From NCBI RefSeq assembly GCF_016744175.1, contig NZ_JADGEV010000021.1, positions 22,625-59,391 on the forward strand: a stretch of 36,767 nucleotides of DNA, written 5' to 3'. The position numbers and the translations under genes were made by a program. The notes below the pieces were generated by a model, which ran no database searches, was not told the DNA's origin, and saw only the letters and a program-made list of their open reading frames with translations. Numbering within the stretch: the first letter of the stretch is position 1; the number at the start of each line of letters is the position of its first letter. Source of the DNA: Neptunomonas sp. (lineage in GTDB: Bacteria; Pseudomonadota; Gammaproteobacteria; Pseudomonadales; Balneatricaceae). This document shows, in pieces, positions 15,742 through 24,000 of the stretch.

Positions 15742-17232
15742 TTATAGCTTGCTAAGGTAGCTATTAAATCGCTGCTTAATCGACTCTGATGGTGCTGCTG
15801 TTACTAAGCTTACAATGACAATTGATACTGCTGCAAAAATAATACCCGGAACTATTTCATAAACATCAAAAATACCTCCACTTATTTGCTTCCAGATAAC
15901 AACCGTTAAGCCACCAACAATAACACCTGCCAATGCACCAAAACGGTTCATGCGTTTCCAATACAAGCTTAGGATTAGCGTTGGACCAAAAGCAGCACCA
16001 AAGCCTGCCCATGCATAAGAAACTAACCCTAATACAGAACTGTCAGGGCTCATTGCCAGCATCAGAGCGACAAGGGACAAACCTATTACGGCAATTCGAC
16101 CGACCATGACCACTTGCTTTTGTGACGCATCTTTACGAAATACTTGTTTGTAAAAATCTTCGGCCAATGCGGAAGAAGATACCAACAGTTGTGAGTCTGC
16201 TGTGCTCATAATGGCTGCAAGAATAGCGGCCAAAAGAATACCTGCAACAACCGGGTGGAATATTGCGTTGACTAGCAACATGAAGATTTTTTCGCCGTCT
16301 CCTAAGTTTCCACCCAACTGGTTGTCTACATAGATAATACCGGCAAGGCCCACGAGTATAGCGCCGACCATGGATAGCCCAGACCACACGACCGCAATAC
16401 GGCGAGCAGTAGTGATCTCTGCATTACTGCGTACTGCAGCAAAACGCGCCAAAATATGAGGTTGGCCGAAGTAACCTAAACCCCACGCAGCTAAAGAGAT
16501 AATAGCGATGGCTGTTAGTGGTTCACCTTTGCTATCGTTCCAGATAGTGAGCAGTTCCGGGTTTTTAATTTCTAAAGCGGTAAAGAGGTTAGCAAAACCC
16601 CCTTCAGACTGAATAGCAATAATAGGCACAATAATAAGAGCCGCAGCCATTAATAAACCTTGCACTAAATCTGTCCAAGATACCGCTAAGAAACCGCCAA
16701 ACAAGGTATAGGACACAACACAAACGGTGCCTATGATGACTGCTAGGGTGTAATCCAAACCAAACACTGTTTCAAATAATTTTCCGCCAGCGACAAGGCC
16801 TGAACTTGTGTAAAACAAGAAGAACAACAAAATAAAGAATGCAGATATCACTTGAAGCAGATTTGAACGGTCTTCGAAGCGTTTTGCAAAGAACTCGGGT
16901 AGTGTGAGTGAGTCGTCTGCTTCAATACTGTAAGTACGTAGACGTTTGGCTACTAATAACCAGTTTAGCCAAGTGCCTATGAGCAAGCCTGCGCCAAGCC
17001 AAATTGACTCTAAACCAGACGAAAAAGCATAACCTGGTAGACCTAAAAGTAACCAGCCACTCATGTCAGAAGCACCCGCTGATAATGCAGCAGGCCATGG
17101 ACCTAAGGATCGGCCACCTAAGAAATAATCTGAAGAGTTTGCTGTACGTCGGTAAGCATACACACCAATGGCAAGCATTAGCCCCAGATAAATCGTAAAA
17201 GTACCAATAATGGCACCGCTATTTGCGATCAT
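15742..17232 (-). CDS. putP: Na+/proline symporter
   Basis: A 496-residue sodium:solute symporter very close to E. coli PutP in length and sequence. The Na+ and proline site near membrane segment 2 is intact (GASDMSGW, with Asp56, Ser58 and Gly59 matching Asp55, Ser57 and Gly58 of E. coli). The later block IMSTADSQLLVSSSA carries the Ser/Thr pair of the second sodium-binding region. It brings proline into the cell for PutA. GAGGT before the ATG supports the start. It is the third gene of the put operon, 128 bases after the gene for the separate PutA C-terminal domain; that gap holds a GCTTATC/GATAAGC inverted repeat (17316-17349). Confidence 0.96.
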   Translation of the reverse strand: MIANSGAIIGTFTIYLGLMLAIGVYAYRRTANSSDYFLGGRSLGPWPAALSAGASDMSGWLLLGLPGYAFSSGLESIWLGAGLLIGTWLNWLLVAKRLRTYSIEADDSLTLPEFFAKRFEDRSNLLQVISAFFILLFFLFYTSSGLVAGGKLFETVFGLDYTLAVIIGTVCVVSYTLFGGFLAVSWTDLVQGLLMAAALIIVPIIAIQSEGGFANLFTALEIKNPELLTIWNDSKGEPLTAIAIISLAAWGLGYFGQPHILARFAAVRSNAEITTARRIAVVWSGLSMVGAILVGLAGIIYVDNQLGGNLGDGEKIFMLLVNAIFHPVVAGILLAAILAAIMSTADSQLLVSSSALAEDFYKQVFRKDASQKQVVMVGRIAVIGLSLVALMLAMSPDSSVLGLVSYAWAGFGAAFGPTLILSLYWKRMNRFGALAGVIVGGLTVVIWKQISGGIFDVYEIVPGIIFAAVSIVIVSLVTAAPSESIKQRFNSYLSKL

Positions 17233-17360
17233 TTACCATACCTCGTGTTAAGTCTGAAAGTTATTATTAGAATCGGCCTATTTTGGAGAGGGCGAAAATA
17301 AGCCGTGGATCATACGCTTATCGTTATACTTTTGGGTATTGTGATAAGCATTTTTTGAGG

Positions 17361-18062
17361 TTACGAGTCGCTTTTGCCTCCAAGCTCCAATAACGTCGCA
17401 TTACCTCCTACCGCAGTGGTATTCACTGAGAGAGTGCTTTCTGTGACAAAACGCCAAGGATAATCAAGGCTGGTTAATGTCGCATAAGCATCAAAATCTG
17501 TTTCTGAAATTAGTTGCGCTAGCATGCCATCGCGTTGTGCTAGTTGTGCATTGAGCGCTATTACATCAGCATTCTGTCCACAAAATGCATAGGCATGAAA
17601 GGCTTCACAACCGGCTAGCTCTTCCGTTGATGCGCTGCTGATTTGAACGGCATCAGGTGTTACTCCTGCGTTAAGTAATGCTGAATGTAAACGATGTGTG
17701 TACTTGTTTGATGCCTGTAGAACAACGACGTTACCGGTTGCTAGCGCAGTGAATAGTTGCGCTGCAATAGCCGGGTTACACGCTTCTTGTGGAAGGGTAT
17801 TATGTGCCTTCTCTGCACAAATACCGATAAGCCCTCGGCCACTCCAGCGCAAGCTGTTAGCTTCACCTGTTGGGCCTGGTAAAATAATGGTTTCTGGCAT
17901 TGTCGTAGTAATTCGTGCGAGGAGCCAATTCACAAGAGGTTGGTTGAGCTCTTCTGCTGCGATGTAAAGCAATTTAGTTCGGGCTGTCAGTCCTAATGCA
18001 TTCCAGCCTTCCCAAGCAGATTCTGCAGTTTTTATAGCGCTTGCTAATGTTGAGTTAGTCAT
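17361..18062 (-). CDS. stand-alone C-terminal (ALDH-like) domain of type B PutA
   Basis: A 233-residue protein that corresponds to the C-terminal domain of long PutA proteins, here as a separate gene. Recognisable blocks are ILPGPTGE near the middle, as in the E. coli PutA C-terminal region, and the final motif NTTAVGGNATLLELG (from residue 214), which matches the conserved last motif of E. coli PutA. It lacks an ALDH catalytic cysteine block and is too short to be an enzyme alone. In type B PutA this domain covers the tunnel through which P5C/glutamate semialdehyde moves between the two active sites, so this protein presumably binds PutA. The ATG at 18062 is preferred because of AGGAG six bases upstream; it lies 13 bases after the putA stop. 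An upstream ATG at 18089 overlaps putA and has no such site. Confidence 0.85.
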   Translation of the reverse strand: MTNSTLASAIKTAESAWEGWNALGLTARTKLLYIAAEELNQPLVNWLLARITTTMPETIILPGPTGEANSLRWSGRGLIGICAEKAHNTLPQEACNPAIAAQLFTALATGNVVVLQASNKYTHRLHSALLNAGVTPDAVQISSASTEELAGCEAFHAYAFCGQNADVIALNAQLAQRDGMLAQLISETDFDAYATLTSLDYPWRFVTESTLSVNTTAVGGNATLLELGGKSDS

Positions 18063-18068
18063 ATGTAT

Positions 18069-18073
18069 CTCCT
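18069..18073 (-). promoter_or_regulatory. ribosome binding site of the stand-alone PutA C-terminal domain gene
   Basis: AGGAG with a six-base spacer before the ATG at 18062. It shows that the separate reading frame is a real, independently translated gene and not just a frameshifted end of putA. Confidence 0.8.
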
Positions 18074-18075
18074 GC

Positions 18076-21000
18076 TCACGCTTTGTCATTTAAAGGGCTT
18101 TGTGTATTTGTCTTTTGGGAGCTGCTCGCTTTAACGCTTTGTACTTCGCGAGTGAAACGTTTTAAGTAATGTGGTCCGCCGGCTTTAGGGCCCGTGCCTG
18201 AAAGCCCTTGGCCACCAAAAGGTTGAACCCCGACTACAGCGCCGACTTGATCGCGGTTGATATAAATATTGCCAGCTCGGACACGCTGTGCAATGTGATT
18301 AGCAGTGGTTTCGTTGCGTGTATGCACACCCAGTGTTAATCCGAAGCCGCTGTCGTTGATGCTATCAATGATGCTGTCGAGTTCAGAGGCTTTATAGCGA
18401 ACCACGTGAAGAATCGGCCCAAACTGCTCTTCAGATAACCGTTCGATTCCTGAAATCTCGAATGCACTTGGGGCAATAAAAGTACCTTTCTCCGCATCAA
18501 ATGGTAGTGGTGTTTGAGCAATCAGGGAGGCGTTTTTATTCATGTTTTCAATATGCTGCAAAAGCCCGGCTTGTGCCCTTTTATCTATGACAGGTCCGAT
18601 ATCTGTTTGATGGTATTCAGGGTTTCCAACAGTGCTTTCTTGCATAGCACCACGTAGCATTGGAATAATGCGATCAGCGACATCTTTCTGAATAAATAAC
18701 ACGCGTAATGCTGAGCAGCGTTGCCCGGCGGATGCAAAAGCTGAGCGTACAACATCACGTACGACCTGTTCCGGCAGGCATGTTGAGTCGATTAACATGG
18801 CATTTTGTCCGCCTGTTTCGGCTATAAATGGGACGGGCTCTGCTTGGCGTTTGGCTAATGAGCGGTTTATACGCTGCGCGGTCCCTGTTGAGCCAGTAAA
18901 GGCTACACCAGCAACTCGTTTGTCAGAAGTTAATGGCTCACCTAGTGTGGCCCCTTCACCGGTAAGTAGCTGAATAGCTCCTGCAGGGATGCCTGCCTCA
19001 AGCATTAATTGAACAGCGCGAAAGGCAATAAGGCTAGTTTGTTCGGCAGGTTTGGCGATAACAGTGTTGCCTGCAGCCAGCGCAGCTGTTATGGGTCCTA
19101 GGAATATGGCTAGGGGGAAGTTCCAAGGTGAGATACAAACAAACACGCCTCGACCTTGGCGGCTTATTTCTAATGTGGAATCATCAAAGTTCTGTAACGT
19201 TTCTGTTTCGCTCATTGCTAAGCGAGCCTGGACAGCATAATACCGGCAAAAATCAACGGCTTCACGAACCTCGTCGATGCCATCTTGTAACGTTTTACCC
19301 GCTTCTCGATGGCATAGTGCCATGAATTCACCGTAATTGGCTTCGAGCAAATCGGCTAAGCGCTCTAAAGCTTGGGCGCGAACAGTTACGGGTGTATCAC
19401 GCCATGCTGGGTAAGCCTTTTCAGCGTGTTCTAAAGCAAGGTCTACATGCGAAGCGTTAGCGAAATTAACCTGCCCTACGCTTTGATTGTGATCGTAAGG
19501 AGCAACTTTTTTATGTTCTGTGGTATGTATTGATATTACTTCACCATTAATTATGGGGCCTGCTTGCCAGGTAGTCTTCATAAATGGCTGAATCAACGCC
19601 TTAAAGTGATTCCATTCAGCATCAACTTCAATGTTGTAACCGTAAGAATTCTTACGCTCGTCACCAAACAGTTCTACAGGGAGCGGAATATAAGGATTGG
19701 CAAGAGATTCGCGTGATGCTAAGACATCAGCGGGGTGATTCACTAGTTCGCTAATAGGGCAGCGAGCATCAACTAAGCGGTGGACAAATGAACTGTTTGC
19801 TCCGTTCTCTAATAAGCGACGAACTAAATAGGGTAATAAATCCTTATGATTTCCTACCGGTGCATAAATACGAACAGCAACATTGTTTGTTTTGAGAACG
19901 GTATTATAAAGAGAATCTCCCATACCGTGTAAGCGCTGGAATTCGAATTCATCATGCATCGCCATGGCAATAACGGAAGCAACAGTATGTGCATTGTGGC
20001 TGGCAAACTGCGGATAAATATGGCCTCGAACATTTTCGCTTAACAAGAACCGAGCGCATGCTAAATAGGCGGTATCAGTAGCTTCTTTTCGAGTGTATAC
20101 AGGGTAACCACTTAGACCTCGTTGCTGACAGTTTTTAATCTCACTGTCCCAATAAGCACCTTTCACTAGACGAAGAGGAATTCGATCCCCTTGGCTTTTT
20201 GCTAAAGCTGCTAACCAAGCTAATACAGGTAATGCCCGTTTAGAGTAAGCCTGTATCACTAAACCTAACTCACCCCACCCACGTGTGTGCTTGTGTTGAT
20301 ATAGTTGCTGAAATAGCTCTAAGGAAAGCTCTAAACGGTCTGCTTCTTCTGCGTCTATGGTAATGCCGACATTTAAGGATCTAGCATGGCGAATAAGCTC
20401 AAGTAGCTTATCGCTCATTTCTCCTAAAACACGTGATTTTTGACTAGCCTCATAGCGAGGGTGGAGTGCAGATAGCTTGATGGAAATTGTGGGTATGGGG
20501 GCACTTCCTTCGTACTTATCTTTACCAACAGCAGTAATGGCTTGTTTATAGTCATTGAAATACTTATCAGCATCTTGCGATGTTAGTGCTGCTTCACCAA
20601 GCATATCGAAAGAGTATGTATAGCCTTTATCTCGATCGCTACGACCACGCTTTAATGCTTCTTTAATGGAGCGCCCCAGTACAAACTGATGTCCCATGAT
20701 TTTCATGGCTTGGTTCATCACTTTACGGATGACAGGTTCAGACATTTTATTAACAAGGCGGTTAATAACGTTTGACGGTTCGCCGTCTTCATCTTTATCA
20801 AGCGATACAACTTTTCCAGTCAGCAGTAATCCCCAAGTAGAGGCATTTACAAACAAAGAGTCTGAGTTTTGTAAATGTGCTTTCCAGTCTGCTACTGACA
20901 GCTTGTCTCGAATTAGCGCATCGGCTGTTTCGGCATCAGGTATGCGCATTAACGCTTCAGCCAGACACATCAGAAGAATGCCTTCATGTGTATCTAGGCT

Positions 21001-21243
21001 GTATTCCAGCAGCAGAGCGTCGATCATGTGAATAGCACCATCATCCGCACGTACTTGTTCAATTAGCGTAGTCGCACCCAGAGTGATTTGTTGGCGTTCA
21101 TTCGCGTTTGGCATGGCTAATGGCAGTAGCTCTGTTAACCAGCTCGCTTCATCTACTGCATAGAGAGGAGAAATGAGCTCCCAAATTTGTGATAGTGGCT
21201 GATCTAGAAAACCAGGGTTTAAGATGTCGGTGGCTTTGAACAT
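18076..21243 (-). CDS. putA: bifunctional proline dehydrogenase / L-glutamate gamma-semialdehyde dehydrogenase, without DNA-binding and C-terminal domains
   Basis: PutA oxidises proline to P5C with FAD and then to glutamate with NAD+. The 1055-residue protein begins MFKATDILN. An arm/alpha region is followed by the proline dehydrogenase barrel (about 170-490) with LRLVKGAYWD and RRLLENGANSSF, whose Arg475-Arg476 match the substrate-binding arginine pair of E. coli. The aldehyde dehydrogenase domain (about 550-1035) has SPWNFPLAIF, FTGSTGTA, ETGGQNAM and catalytic Cys843 in SAGQRCSALR. There is no N-terminal ribbon-helix-helix domain, so it cannot repress its own operon as E. coli PutA does. 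The protein stops soon after the GGPHYLKRF flap, where longer PutAs continue into the C-terminal domain; that domain is the next gene. The start at 21243 is chosen for AGGGAG seven bases upstream; an extension to 21423 looks non-coding. Confidence 0.95.
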   Translation of the reverse strand: MFKATDILNPGFLDQPLSQIWELISPLYAVDEASWLTELLPLAMPNANERQQITLGATTLIEQVRADDGAIHMIDALLLEYSLDTHEGILLMCLAEALMRIPDAETADALIRDKLSVADWKAHLQNSDSLFVNASTWGLLLTGKVVSLDKDEDGEPSNVINRLVNKMSEPVIRKVMNQAMKIMGHQFVLGRSIKEALKRGRSDRDKGYTYSFDMLGEAALTSQDADKYFNDYKQAITAVGKDKYEGSAPIPTISIKLSALHPRYEASQKSRVLGEMSDKLLELIRHARSLNVGITIDAEEADRLELSLELFQQLYQHKHTRGWGELGLVIQAYSKRALPVLAWLAALAKSQGDRIPLRLVKGAYWDSEIKNCQQRGLSGYPVYTRKEATDTAYLACARFLLSENVRGHIYPQFASHNAHTVASVIAMAMHDEFEFQRLHGMGDSLYNTVLKTNNVAVRIYAPVGNHKDLLPYLVRRLLENGANSSFVHRLVDARCPISELVNHPADVLASRESLANPYIPLPVELFGDERKNSYGYNIEVDAEWNHFKALIQPFMKTTWQAGPIINGEVISIHTTEHKKVAPYDHNQSVGQVNFANASHVDLALEHAEKAYPAWRDTPVTVRAQALERLADLLEANYGEFMALCHREAGKTLQDGIDEVREAVDFCRYYAVQARLAMSETETLQNFDDSTLEISRQGRGVFVCISPWNFPLAIFLGPITAALAAGNTVIAKPAEQTSLIAFRAVQLMLEAGIPAGAIQLLTGEGATLGEPLTSDKRVAGVAFTGSTGTAQRINRSLAKRQAEPVPFIAETGGQNAMLIDSTCLPEQVVRDVVRSAFASAGQRCSALRVLFIQKDVADRIIPMLRGAMQESTVGNPEYHQTDIGPVIDKRAQAGLLQHIENMNKNASLIAQTPLPFDAEKGTFIAPSAFEISGIERLSEEQFGPILHVVRYKASELDSIIDSINDSGFGLTLGVHTRNETTANHIAQRVRAGNIYINRDQVGAVVGVQPFGGQGLSGTGPKAGGPHYLKRFTREVQSVKASSSQKTNTQSPLNDKA

Positions 21244-21552: not shown

Positions 21553-22044
21553 ATGCAACCGAAAGTCGCCATTATCATGGGTTCTAAAAGTGATTGGGAT
21601 ACCATGAAATTAGCCACCGAGATTCTGGACGAGCTTCAGGTACCTCACCATGTCGAAGTTGTTTCAGCACACCGTACACCCGACAAGCTTTTTTCTTTCT
21701 CCTCTGGCGCTGTTGATGCCGGCTATCAGGTAATTATTGCGGGTGCTGGTGGCGCCGCACATTTACCTGGCATGATAGCTTCGAAAACGCGGTTGCCTGT
21801 TTTGGGTGTCCCTGTTCAAAGCAAAGCGTTAAATGGTATGGATAGTTTGCTATCAATTGTTCAGATGCCTAAAGGTATAGCTGTTGGTACGCTAGCAATT
21901 GGCGCAGCAGGTGCTTTTAATGCAGGCTTGATGGCCGCACAAATTATTGCGAATGCCGACGTTAAATTGGCACAGCGTTTGGACGCTTTTCGCAAGACGC
22001 AAACAGATACTATTTTAGAAAACCCTGATCCGCGAGAAGTCTAA
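21553..22044 (+). CDS. purE: N5-carboxyaminoimidazole ribonucleotide mutase
   Basis: PurE moves the carboxyl group of N5-CAIR to carbon 4 in purine synthesis. The 163-residue protein is a typical class I PurE: the nucleotide-binding loop [10 protein letters not shown], the active-site histidine in SAHRTPD (His40), and the glycine-rich [12 protein letters not shown] block are all present. Its stop overlaps the purK start by one base (TAATG), so the pair is translationally coupled. Together with PurK it replaces the direct carboxylation of AIR. Confidence 0.97.
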
Positions 22045-23111
22045 TGAGTAAAGTATGGGTATTGGGTGCAGGTCAGTTGGGCGCTATGATGCGCCACGCG
22101 GCGACGCCGTTGAACGTTGAGGTTGTGCCGGTTGACTTTAATCAGTCCCAGAGTGTTGAATTAGCAGACGATGATGTTGTTACTGCTGAAATAGAGCTGT
22201 GGCCTGAAACAAATGCTACTAATGTGCTTTCAAATCATCCTCATTTTATTAATCGCGAAGTGTTTCCGCGTTTAGCGGACCGTTTCACGCAGAAACAGCT
22301 ACTTGATGAGTTGCAAATTGCCACAGCTCCGTGGCAATTAGTTGATTCGGATACTCAAGCACAAGCACTTTATCAGTCACTAGGTGAAACTGTACTTCTG
22401 AAGCGTCGTACGGGCGGTTATGATGGCCGCGGTCAGTATTGGCTGAAACAATTAGAAGCCACTGACGTTCCTGAAGGTTGGCATCAAGAAGCAATCGCAG
22501 AGCAGAAAATACCGTTTGATGAAGAGGTATCTCTTGTCGGTGCTAGAGATAAAGAGGGTAATTTGTATTTTTACCCGCTAGCGCTGAATCTGCATGTTAA
22601 CGGCATTCTTATGGCGTCTATTGCTCCATTAGAGCGCTTGTCGGGAGTTCAGGCAGAAGCAGAAGAGATGTTGGGCAAGCTGCTAACTTCTCTTGAGTAT
22701 GTAGGTGTGATGGCGATGGAATGCTTTCGGGTGGGAGACCACTTGATGGTGAATGAGCTCGCTCCTCGTGTACATAACAGTGGGCATTGGACTCAATCCG
22801 GAACGAGTATTAGTCAGTTTGAATCACATATTCGGGCTGTCGCTGGTTTGCCGATGAGTAAAGCAGTGGTCAAAGGCCAATCTGTGATGATTAATTTAAT
22901 TGGTGTTGAGCGTAATAATGACTGGCTTGCTGTTGAAGGTGCTGAGTTATATTGGTACGGGAAAGAAGTTCGAGTAGGGCGCAAGGTAGGGCATATCAAC
23001 CTTACGTTAAATGACGCGCAACAACTTAGCTCATCTTTGGAGCAGCTGGCTTCAAGTTTTCCTGAGCCTTATCCTGAAGTGTTTAGTTGGGTCGCTGATA
23101 ACTTGAAATAA
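22044..23111 (+). CDS. purK: N5-carboxyaminoimidazole ribonucleotide synthase
   Basis: PurK is an ATP-grasp enzyme that joins bicarbonate to AIR to give N5-CAIR for PurE. The 355-residue protein has the N-terminal VWVLGAGQLGAMM motif, the ATP-grasp blocks KRRTGGYDGRGQ and EEVSLVGARD, and the metal and product site NELAPRVHNSGHWT. Length and motif order are normal. It starts on the last base of the purE stop codon and ends at a terminator. Confidence 0.97.
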   Translation: MSKVWVLGAGQLGAMMRHAATPLNVEVVPVDFNQSQSVELADDDVVTAEIELWPETNATNVLSNHPHFINREVFPRLADRFTQKQLLDELQIATAPWQLVDSDTQAQALYQSLGETVLLKRRTGGYDGRGQYWLKQLEATDVPEGWHQEAIAEQKIPFDEEVSLVGARDKEGNLYFYPLALNLHVNGILMASIAPLERLSGVQAEAEEMLGKLLTSLEYVGVMAMECFRVGDHLMVNELAPRVHNSGHWTQSGTSISQFESHIRAVAGLPMSKAVVKGQSVMINLIGVERNNDWLAVEGAELYWYGKEVRVGRKVGHINLTLNDAQQLSSSLEQLASSFPEPYPEVFSWVADNLK

Positions 23112-23238: not shown

Positions 23239-24000
23239 TCAGTATTCAATAATAGTTTTTTGGCAGCGTGCTGGCGTGATATTGAAATGATCACGAAATG
23301 CATGTGTAAATGCACTTTGACTACTAAAACCGCAATGCTCAGCTGTTTGTAATATGGTCCAACCGGCGGCCAGCTTCTCTTTTCCTCGCTCTAAACGTTT
23401 TCGTAATGCATATTGATGAGGTGTAATACCTGTTTTTTCTTTAAAACAGCTATGGAAGTGGCTTGGGCTTAAAAAGACACTTGCGGCGAGTTCGGCAATA
23501 GAGATTTTTCTATGCATATTTAATTGGATATAAAGATCGAGTGCTGCTAAATCAATGTGGGTGTGATGTCGTCGGGGCGTGGGTTCACTCATCAGGTTTT
23601 GCATAGAAAGTAGCAAGGTATTACCGCATGCTTGTAATAGAGGAGAGTTAGCTGGTGTTTGCTTTATTTCTTGGCAAATAGCTTGGAGCAATACTTGCCG
23701 TTGACTATCCAGTGAGAAGTATGAGGCTTTATCAAATAGACTAGATACTTGCGTTTGTAGTGTCGTAGAATTCAGTTGGGAGGTTTCGATATTGATAACA
23801 ACAATACGGTTTTCTCCCATGCCGCAAAAAGCATGTTCTGTTGCAGAGGGGACTAAGCAACCTTTTCCAAGACCAACATTTGCTCCTCGGCCTTGAATAT
23901 CAAACTCGGTATTACCTTCTAACCCAAAAACCAGCTGGTGGTACTTGTGGTCATGATTATTGGCTGTATCGGGTAGTGTCAGTAGCTCTGTTGTCGTCAC
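23239..24000 (-). CDS. AraC-family transcriptional regulator
   Basis: A 253-residue regulator. The N-terminal part (about 1-110) looks like a cupin effector domain, with a histidine-rich start (HDHKYHQLVFG). The C-terminal 100 residues are an AraC/XylS DNA-binding domain with two helix-turn-helix units: ISIAELAASVFLSPSHFHSCFKE, here split as ISIAELAASVF and LSPSHFHSCF, and LQTAEHCGFSSQSAFTHAF. The start is GTG. The target is unknown. Because the PutA here lacks its own DNA-binding domain, and P. aeruginosa controls putAP with the AraC-type activator PruR, this gene 2 kb away is a candidate proline regulator. It could instead act on hemE, which it diverges from, or on distant genes. Confidence 0.88.
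   Translation of the reverse strand: MTTTELLTLPDTANNHDHKYHQLVFGLEGNTEFDIQGRGANVGLGKGCLVPSATEHAFCGMGENRIVVINIETSQLNSTTLQTQVSSLFDKASYFSLDSQRQVLLQAICQEIKQTPANSPLLQACGNTLLLSMQNLMSEPTPRRHHTHIDLAALDLYIQLNMHRKISIAELAASVFLSPSHFHSCFKEKTGITPHQYALRKRLERGKEKLAAGWTILQTAEHCGFSSQSAFTHAFRDHFNITPARCQKTIIEY

Follow-up and report, generated by a model that had tools for sequence, protein, structure and literature searches.

The gene immediately downstream of putA in a stretch of Neptunomonas sp. DNA encodes a 233-residue protein that, judging from sequence comparisons, is probably a non-catalytic subunit of PutA that would supply the lid of the enzyme in trans; the two blocks concerned, PGPTGE and the C-terminal lid motif, would have been ceded to it once, by a type A ancestor. 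PutA is a standard model for substrate channelling. A lid encoded as a separate protein would make its part in aldehyde dehydrogenase (ALDH) activity and channelling measurable by adding or omitting one protein, with the enzyme itself left untruncated.

In the window, by which we mean the whole stretch of 36,767 nucleotides analysed, putA, the 233-residue gene and putP lie consecutively on the minus strand, with the following features:

18076..21243, minus strand: putA core (PRODH and ALDH modules, without the lid motif), 1055 aa; ATG at 21243, stop ending at 18076
19147..19197, minus strand: site in the PutA ALDH module matching the PGPTGE position of type A enzymes; it reads LQNFDDSTLEISRQGRG here
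18076..18180, minus strand: C-terminal end of PutA, GGPHYLKRF plus a 25-residue tail without the lid motif
18069..18073, minus strand: AGGAG ribosome-binding site of the small gene; comparable sites lie ahead of 69/69 homologues, whose starts were chosen with the site in mind
17361..18062, minus strand: small gene, 233 aa, encoding a putative lid/adapter protein, a homologue of the type B PutA C-terminal domain
17862..17879, minus strand: PGPTGE motif, residues 62-67 of the small protein, from the alignment
17379..17453, minus strand: C-terminal lid motif RFVTESTLSVNTTAVGGNATLLELG, residues 204-228 of the small protein, from the alignment
15742..17232, minus strand: putP, sodium/proline symporter, the next gene downstream of the small gene
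23239..24000, minus strand: AraC-family gene, a candidate regulator, split from putA by two opposite-strand genes

Thirteen bases separate the TGA of putA from the ATG of the small gene at 18062, and AGGAG precedes this ATG. The initial annotation had described a PutA that ends after GGPHYLKRF and is followed, 13 bases on, by a separate 233-residue frame with its own ATG and AGGAG, and the coordinates confirm this; the PutA C-terminal hallmarks that it had recognized in the small protein are likewise present, ILPGPTGE at residues 60-67 and NTTAVGGNATLL at residues 214-225. The longest frame starts at 18089 (242 aa) and overlaps putA, and we took 18062 as the start because it is the position preceded by the ribosome site. 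Our PutA queries started at 21237 and so were without the first two residues. The source assembly (4.2 Mb, 97 contigs) contains one match to the small gene.

Sequence searches with the small protein lead to PutA. There was no Pfam family at E 0.001, the two NCBIfam matches are both PutA families, and every PDB sequence matched under E 0.1 is a PutA. Aligned with six type B C-terminal domains, the small protein gave an hhalign probability of 100 (E 7.5e-43, 209 columns). It resembles the type B domain, an ALDH-superfamily domain of unknown function (SmPutA, 5KF6; RcPutA), in the order of its parts (arm, PGPTGE, Rossmann-like part, lid motif) and in the absence of the NAD and catalytic patterns, and differs from it in that the type B domain is fused to the catalytic core and here it is a separate gene, in the window as in 68 other loci. 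The sequence of the small protein is that of an ALDH-family remnant consisting of an N-terminal arm and a Rossmann-like part without a catalytic domain. Conservation is highest at PGPTGE..GRG and in the C-terminal block, and the motifs hardly vary among the 20 proteins aligned. From alignments of four rows (the window and L031-L033, the sequences of N. japonica, N. qingdaonensis and N. antarctica), AlphaFold gave poor models, with a pLDDT of 55.7 for the small protein alone, with residues 153-233 under 50, and 34.4 for PutA; all ALDH-fold matches of the predicted small-protein structure were above E 0.001.

Monofunctional PutB and PutC are separate PRODH and P5C dehydrogenase enzymes, and they likewise divide proline oxidation between two genes; here both enzymes are fused in PutA, and only the lid/adapter would be separate. 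That the small protein is itself an enzyme, either a standalone P5C dehydrogenase (the PutC of a putBCP operon) or one acting on another substrate, is suggested by annotation only. The gene is already annotated in databases, as an 'aldehyde dehydrogenase family protein' in Salinivibrio, and according to the available text of PMC3858670 the V. campbellii gene at this position bears the name PutC, a P5C dehydrogenase, in an operon putBCP, with PutP, PutC and PutB carrying successive locus tags and all decreasing together in an hmgA mutant. Its position in that account, flanked by putP and the proline dehydrogenase gene, would make V. campbellii PutC (M892_27510) the small gene described here. 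Against an enzyme stands the lack of a catalytic domain: among 69 small proteins the WNFP, KPAExT and FTGS patterns are found in 0/69 and the GQRC pattern, which contains the catalytic cysteine, in 1/69, while the adjoining PutAs retain WNFP, FTGS and GQRC in 69/69 and KPAExT in 67/69. With the NAD and catalytic motifs gone, the small protein is hardly a P5C dehydrogenase, and we consider an enzymatic role extremely improbable. Adopting a lid subunit instead would correct the annotation of a gene present in 141 of the 150 Vibrionaceae genomes searched.

The initial annotation had pointed to a genome search for separate genes beside putA, and such a search shows the arrangement to be conserved within the family, in Vibrionaceae and in three more families. 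Within the family, 97 of 116 genomes searched contain a match to the small gene, 40 of them as a full separate frame and one more in two contig pieces; the remaining matches are mostly fused PutAs of ~1200 residues and the ALDH modules of ~1050-residue PutAs. Weak short-frame matches (for example in G102, G034, G010 and G060) scored far below the standalone genes and were excluded from the standalone count. When the same 116 genomes were searched with PutA, 42 had a split-type putA (40 whole, at no fewer than 1535 bits, and two cut), and the next matches, in G054 (1462 bits) and G018 (1425 bits), belong to type A enzymes whose own chain includes the lid motif. The small gene is found in 41 of these 42 genomes; in the other, G044, the contig stops ~50 nt after the putA stop. 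It is present in all eight Neptunomonas genomes searched, and this, together with dN/dS values of 0.22 and 0.20 against two close Neptunomonas, argues that it is not a chance frame.

Further afield, among the matches listed for 370 sampled genomes of the class, the small gene was seen only in its own genome, and among those listed for 299 sampled genomes of the phylum it was seen in 15, nine of them in one Vibrionaceae genus. In Vibrionaceae, a family recognised by matches to named Salinivibrio, Vibrio and Photobacterium records, 138 of 150 genomes contain it at E 1e-30. Three of the other 12 have a PutA (broken in G762) followed directly by a weaker copy of the small gene, and in the remaining nine there was no PutA at E 1e-60, which brings the total to 141/150; no genome in which putA was found was without the small gene, the PutA search having covered the 12 genomes without a strong small-gene match and a minority of the 138. 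Two Vibrionaceae matches (G894 and G860) contain an internal stop codon, and that in G881 covers only residues 97-229. The small gene is also present in 47 of 48 genomes of family f170 (the one miss also has no PutA), in 18 of 24 in f175, where five have a fused type B enzyme, and in 7 of 61 in f2, all in one genus; for these three families the position beside putA is that seen in the fetched loci L075-L078, L159-L164, L172 and L173. Genus g307 of f175 contains both arrangements, with 18 genomes having the separate small gene and five a fused type B PutA instead, a mix suggesting that one arrangement replaces the other.

The small gene lies directly behind putA in all fetched loci of the split class, and in 69/69 loci with whole frames it is on the same strand with its own ATG and ribosome site, at a gap of -4 to +73 nt; the 69/69 ribosome sites are no independent test, because the site guided the choice of start. 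The closeness of the two frames in the window, only 13 bases apart, could point to a sequencing error or to a programmed frameshift that rejoins a single chain, but the same arrangement recurs in many assemblies and all three frame offsets between putA and the small gene occur (offset 0 in 6 loci, 1 in 21 and 2 in 42), so that neither one frameshift nor a programmed one would account for them. We give this explanation practically no credence, and the view of the initial annotation that this is a stable gene and not a sequencing error stands.

The small gene appears to be under purifying selection, although weaker than that on putA. Besides the two values given above, dN/dS was 0.04 to 0.14 in three further pairs; 3 of the 8 pairs were synonymously saturated. 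Measured to N. japonica, dN is 0.133 for the small gene vs 0.042 for putA, a rate about three times faster that indicates weaker constraint. This faster change, the internal stop codons in two Vibrionaceae matches and the recent copying of part of a type B putA 3' end in one genome, which shows that such copies do arise, are what might be expected of a decaying remnant without function. Against decay, the frames are open in 69 loci of five families, the motifs are near-invariant in the 20 aligned, dN/dS is well below 1 where it could be computed, and the gene is kept in most sampled genomes of three families; we regard loss of function as very improbable. Decay is thus rejected along with the readings discussed above, an error in the sequence, a programmed frameshift and a genuine P5C dehydrogenase. 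In the G762 locus mentioned above (L181, 3298-7088), putA is in three pieces in different frames, and the small gene behind it is still open.

The distribution of the two blocks links the small protein to its neighbour. We classed 145 whole PutA frames as split (69), type A with the lid in its own chain (41) or type B (26, with one gene counted twice), leaving nine unclassed: five with a variant or degenerate lid motif, three (L110-L112) with none and one (L113) whose contig ends ~50 nt after putA. Two loci with cut putA frames (L052, L061) and one at a contig end (L171) were left out of this classification; L154 is a repeat of L088. The lid motif (terminal NTTAVGGN) occurs in 0/69 split cores. 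PGPTGE, scored at no fewer than 5 of its 6 letters, is likewise found in 0/69 split cores and in 64/69 of the small proteins; the corresponding counts are 36/41 for type A cores, and 0/26 for type B cores with 26/26 for their C-terminal domains. PGPTGE and the lid block therefore travel together, whether in the enzyme chain, in a fused domain or in a separate protein, and this joint travel fits a single closing device. The split PutAs form one clade, so that motif transfer and pairing count as one event and not as 69. The three PutA-like proteins L110-L112 (from G001, G003 and G011) are divergent and short, with neither the lid motif nor a small gene, so not all PutA-like proteins have a lid.

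Types A, B and C of PutA have already been described, and in the available text of PMC5293562 type A enzymes have ~1000 residues and minimal PRODH and ALDH domains with no C-terminal domain. The window PutA (1055 aa) fits this size and minimal-domain definition, the core tree sets its core among type A enzymes, on the other side from type B cores, and its best PDB matches are to the type A enzyme BjPutA (3HAZ), at 960 bits vs 941 for the type B SmPutA. It departs from type A in one respect: the chain of type A enzymes itself includes PGPTGE and the lid motif, a feature seen in these alignments, and 0/69 split cores share it. Type C enzymes are trifunctional with an N-terminal ribbon-helix-helix, and only 24 query residues precede the BjPutA-aligned stretch in the window PutA.

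The initial annotation had read the pair as a split type B PutA, and of this the homology of the small protein to the type B C-terminal domain holds, but the origin from type B does not agree with the enzyme core. Core trees were built from 98, 43 and 33 of the 145 classed PutAs, and in each of them the split PutAs form one clade (support 100) that adjoins type A enzymes from the same class and stands apart from type B; its closest relatives are type A enzymes whose own chain includes the lid. A joint clade of split and type B enzymes was rejected both under LG+G4 with 43 rows (lnL 333 lower, p 2.5e-61) and under a mixture model with the PGPTGE columns removed and 33 rows (lnL 251 lower, p 1.2e-74), and the split cores are therefore not derived from the sampled type B enzymes. 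The split PutA is thus probably not a broken type B, as far as the core sequences indicate, but a third arrangement, in which the lid is supplied in trans.

The ancestry of the small gene is seen less directly. In the domain trees the small proteins and type B domains stand together opposite all ALDH modules (support 99), although in the first of these trees, with long-branch rows in, the small proteins and the type B domains do not each form one group; five such rows (L174, L175, L176, L091 and L152) were left out of the second. A nested origin of the small gene, from the ALDH modules of the lineage to which it belongs, is slightly disfavoured (AU p 0.039), a value that does not settle the matter because both kinds of domain change rapidly and their branches may be drawn together. 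In a block-by-block comparison of 32 small proteins, 29 have a lid block closest to that of related type A enzymes, 3 one closest to distant type A enzymes and 0 one closest to type B. For the PGPTGE block, related type A enzymes are the closest in 18/32, but the Rossmann-like part resembles distant type A enzymes most in 28/32, which does not argue for descent from the own lineage.

Fission of a type B PutA, whereby the fused C-terminal domain became a gene of its own, would explain the strong homology to that domain, N-terminal arm included, as well as the grouping in the domain trees. Set against this are the core trees, with the joint clade rejected under two models, and the lid block with no nearest relative in type B, so that we hold fission to be rather unlikely; it concerns the history only, and a lid in trans would still be possible under it. 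A partial duplication from a type A ancestor appears likelier, from the sequences, than capture of a type B domain. On this preferred history, a type A enzyme would have ceded both blocks once, in the ancestor of the clade, to a partial ALDH copy directly downstream. In one genome (G057), part of the 3' end of a type B putA is repeated in tandem (L115, 5585-6162) over 564 bases at 98% identity, and the copy has a 148-aa frame; this is a recent example of a duplication from which a separate gene could arise. We suggest more tentatively that the split PutA may be a fourth arrangement, which arose once from type A and independently of type B: a partial tandem ALDH copy would have taken PGPTGE and the lid, the enzyme would then have lost both, and the lid would have become a separate and perhaps exchangeable subunit whose occupancy sets how much P5C is channelled and how much released.

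In the available texts, the C-terminal domain of RcPutA is stated to contribute to ALDH activity and channelling (PMC5293562), and in PutAs, SmPutA among them, the C terminus is described as covering part of the tunnel like a lid (PMC12398946). By analogy, the small protein most probably acts in trans on PutA, as the initial annotation had supposed. It would bind the ALDH module of the PutA made beside it, occupying the place taken by the partner protomer in type A dimers or by the fused domain in type B, and its C-terminal strand would close part of the P5C tunnel and support ALDH activity. PutA would then be a two-subunit enzyme with its lid in trans, and it is such a two-protein complex that we infer. 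Our literature search, which covered few subscription papers, found no recognisable paper on a separate gene for the PutA C-terminal domain or lid.

Some features of the surroundings are shared with other loci. The putP gene lies downstream in most of the fetched loci, not all, and AraC-family homologues adjoin putA in many others. In the window, putA is separated from the AraC-family gene by two genes on the other strand (21553-23111), which we take to resemble purE and purK. Finally, the gap between the small gene and putP (17233-17363) can form two hairpins, at -29.3 kcal/mol vs -16.0 in shuffled sequences (z -4.6).
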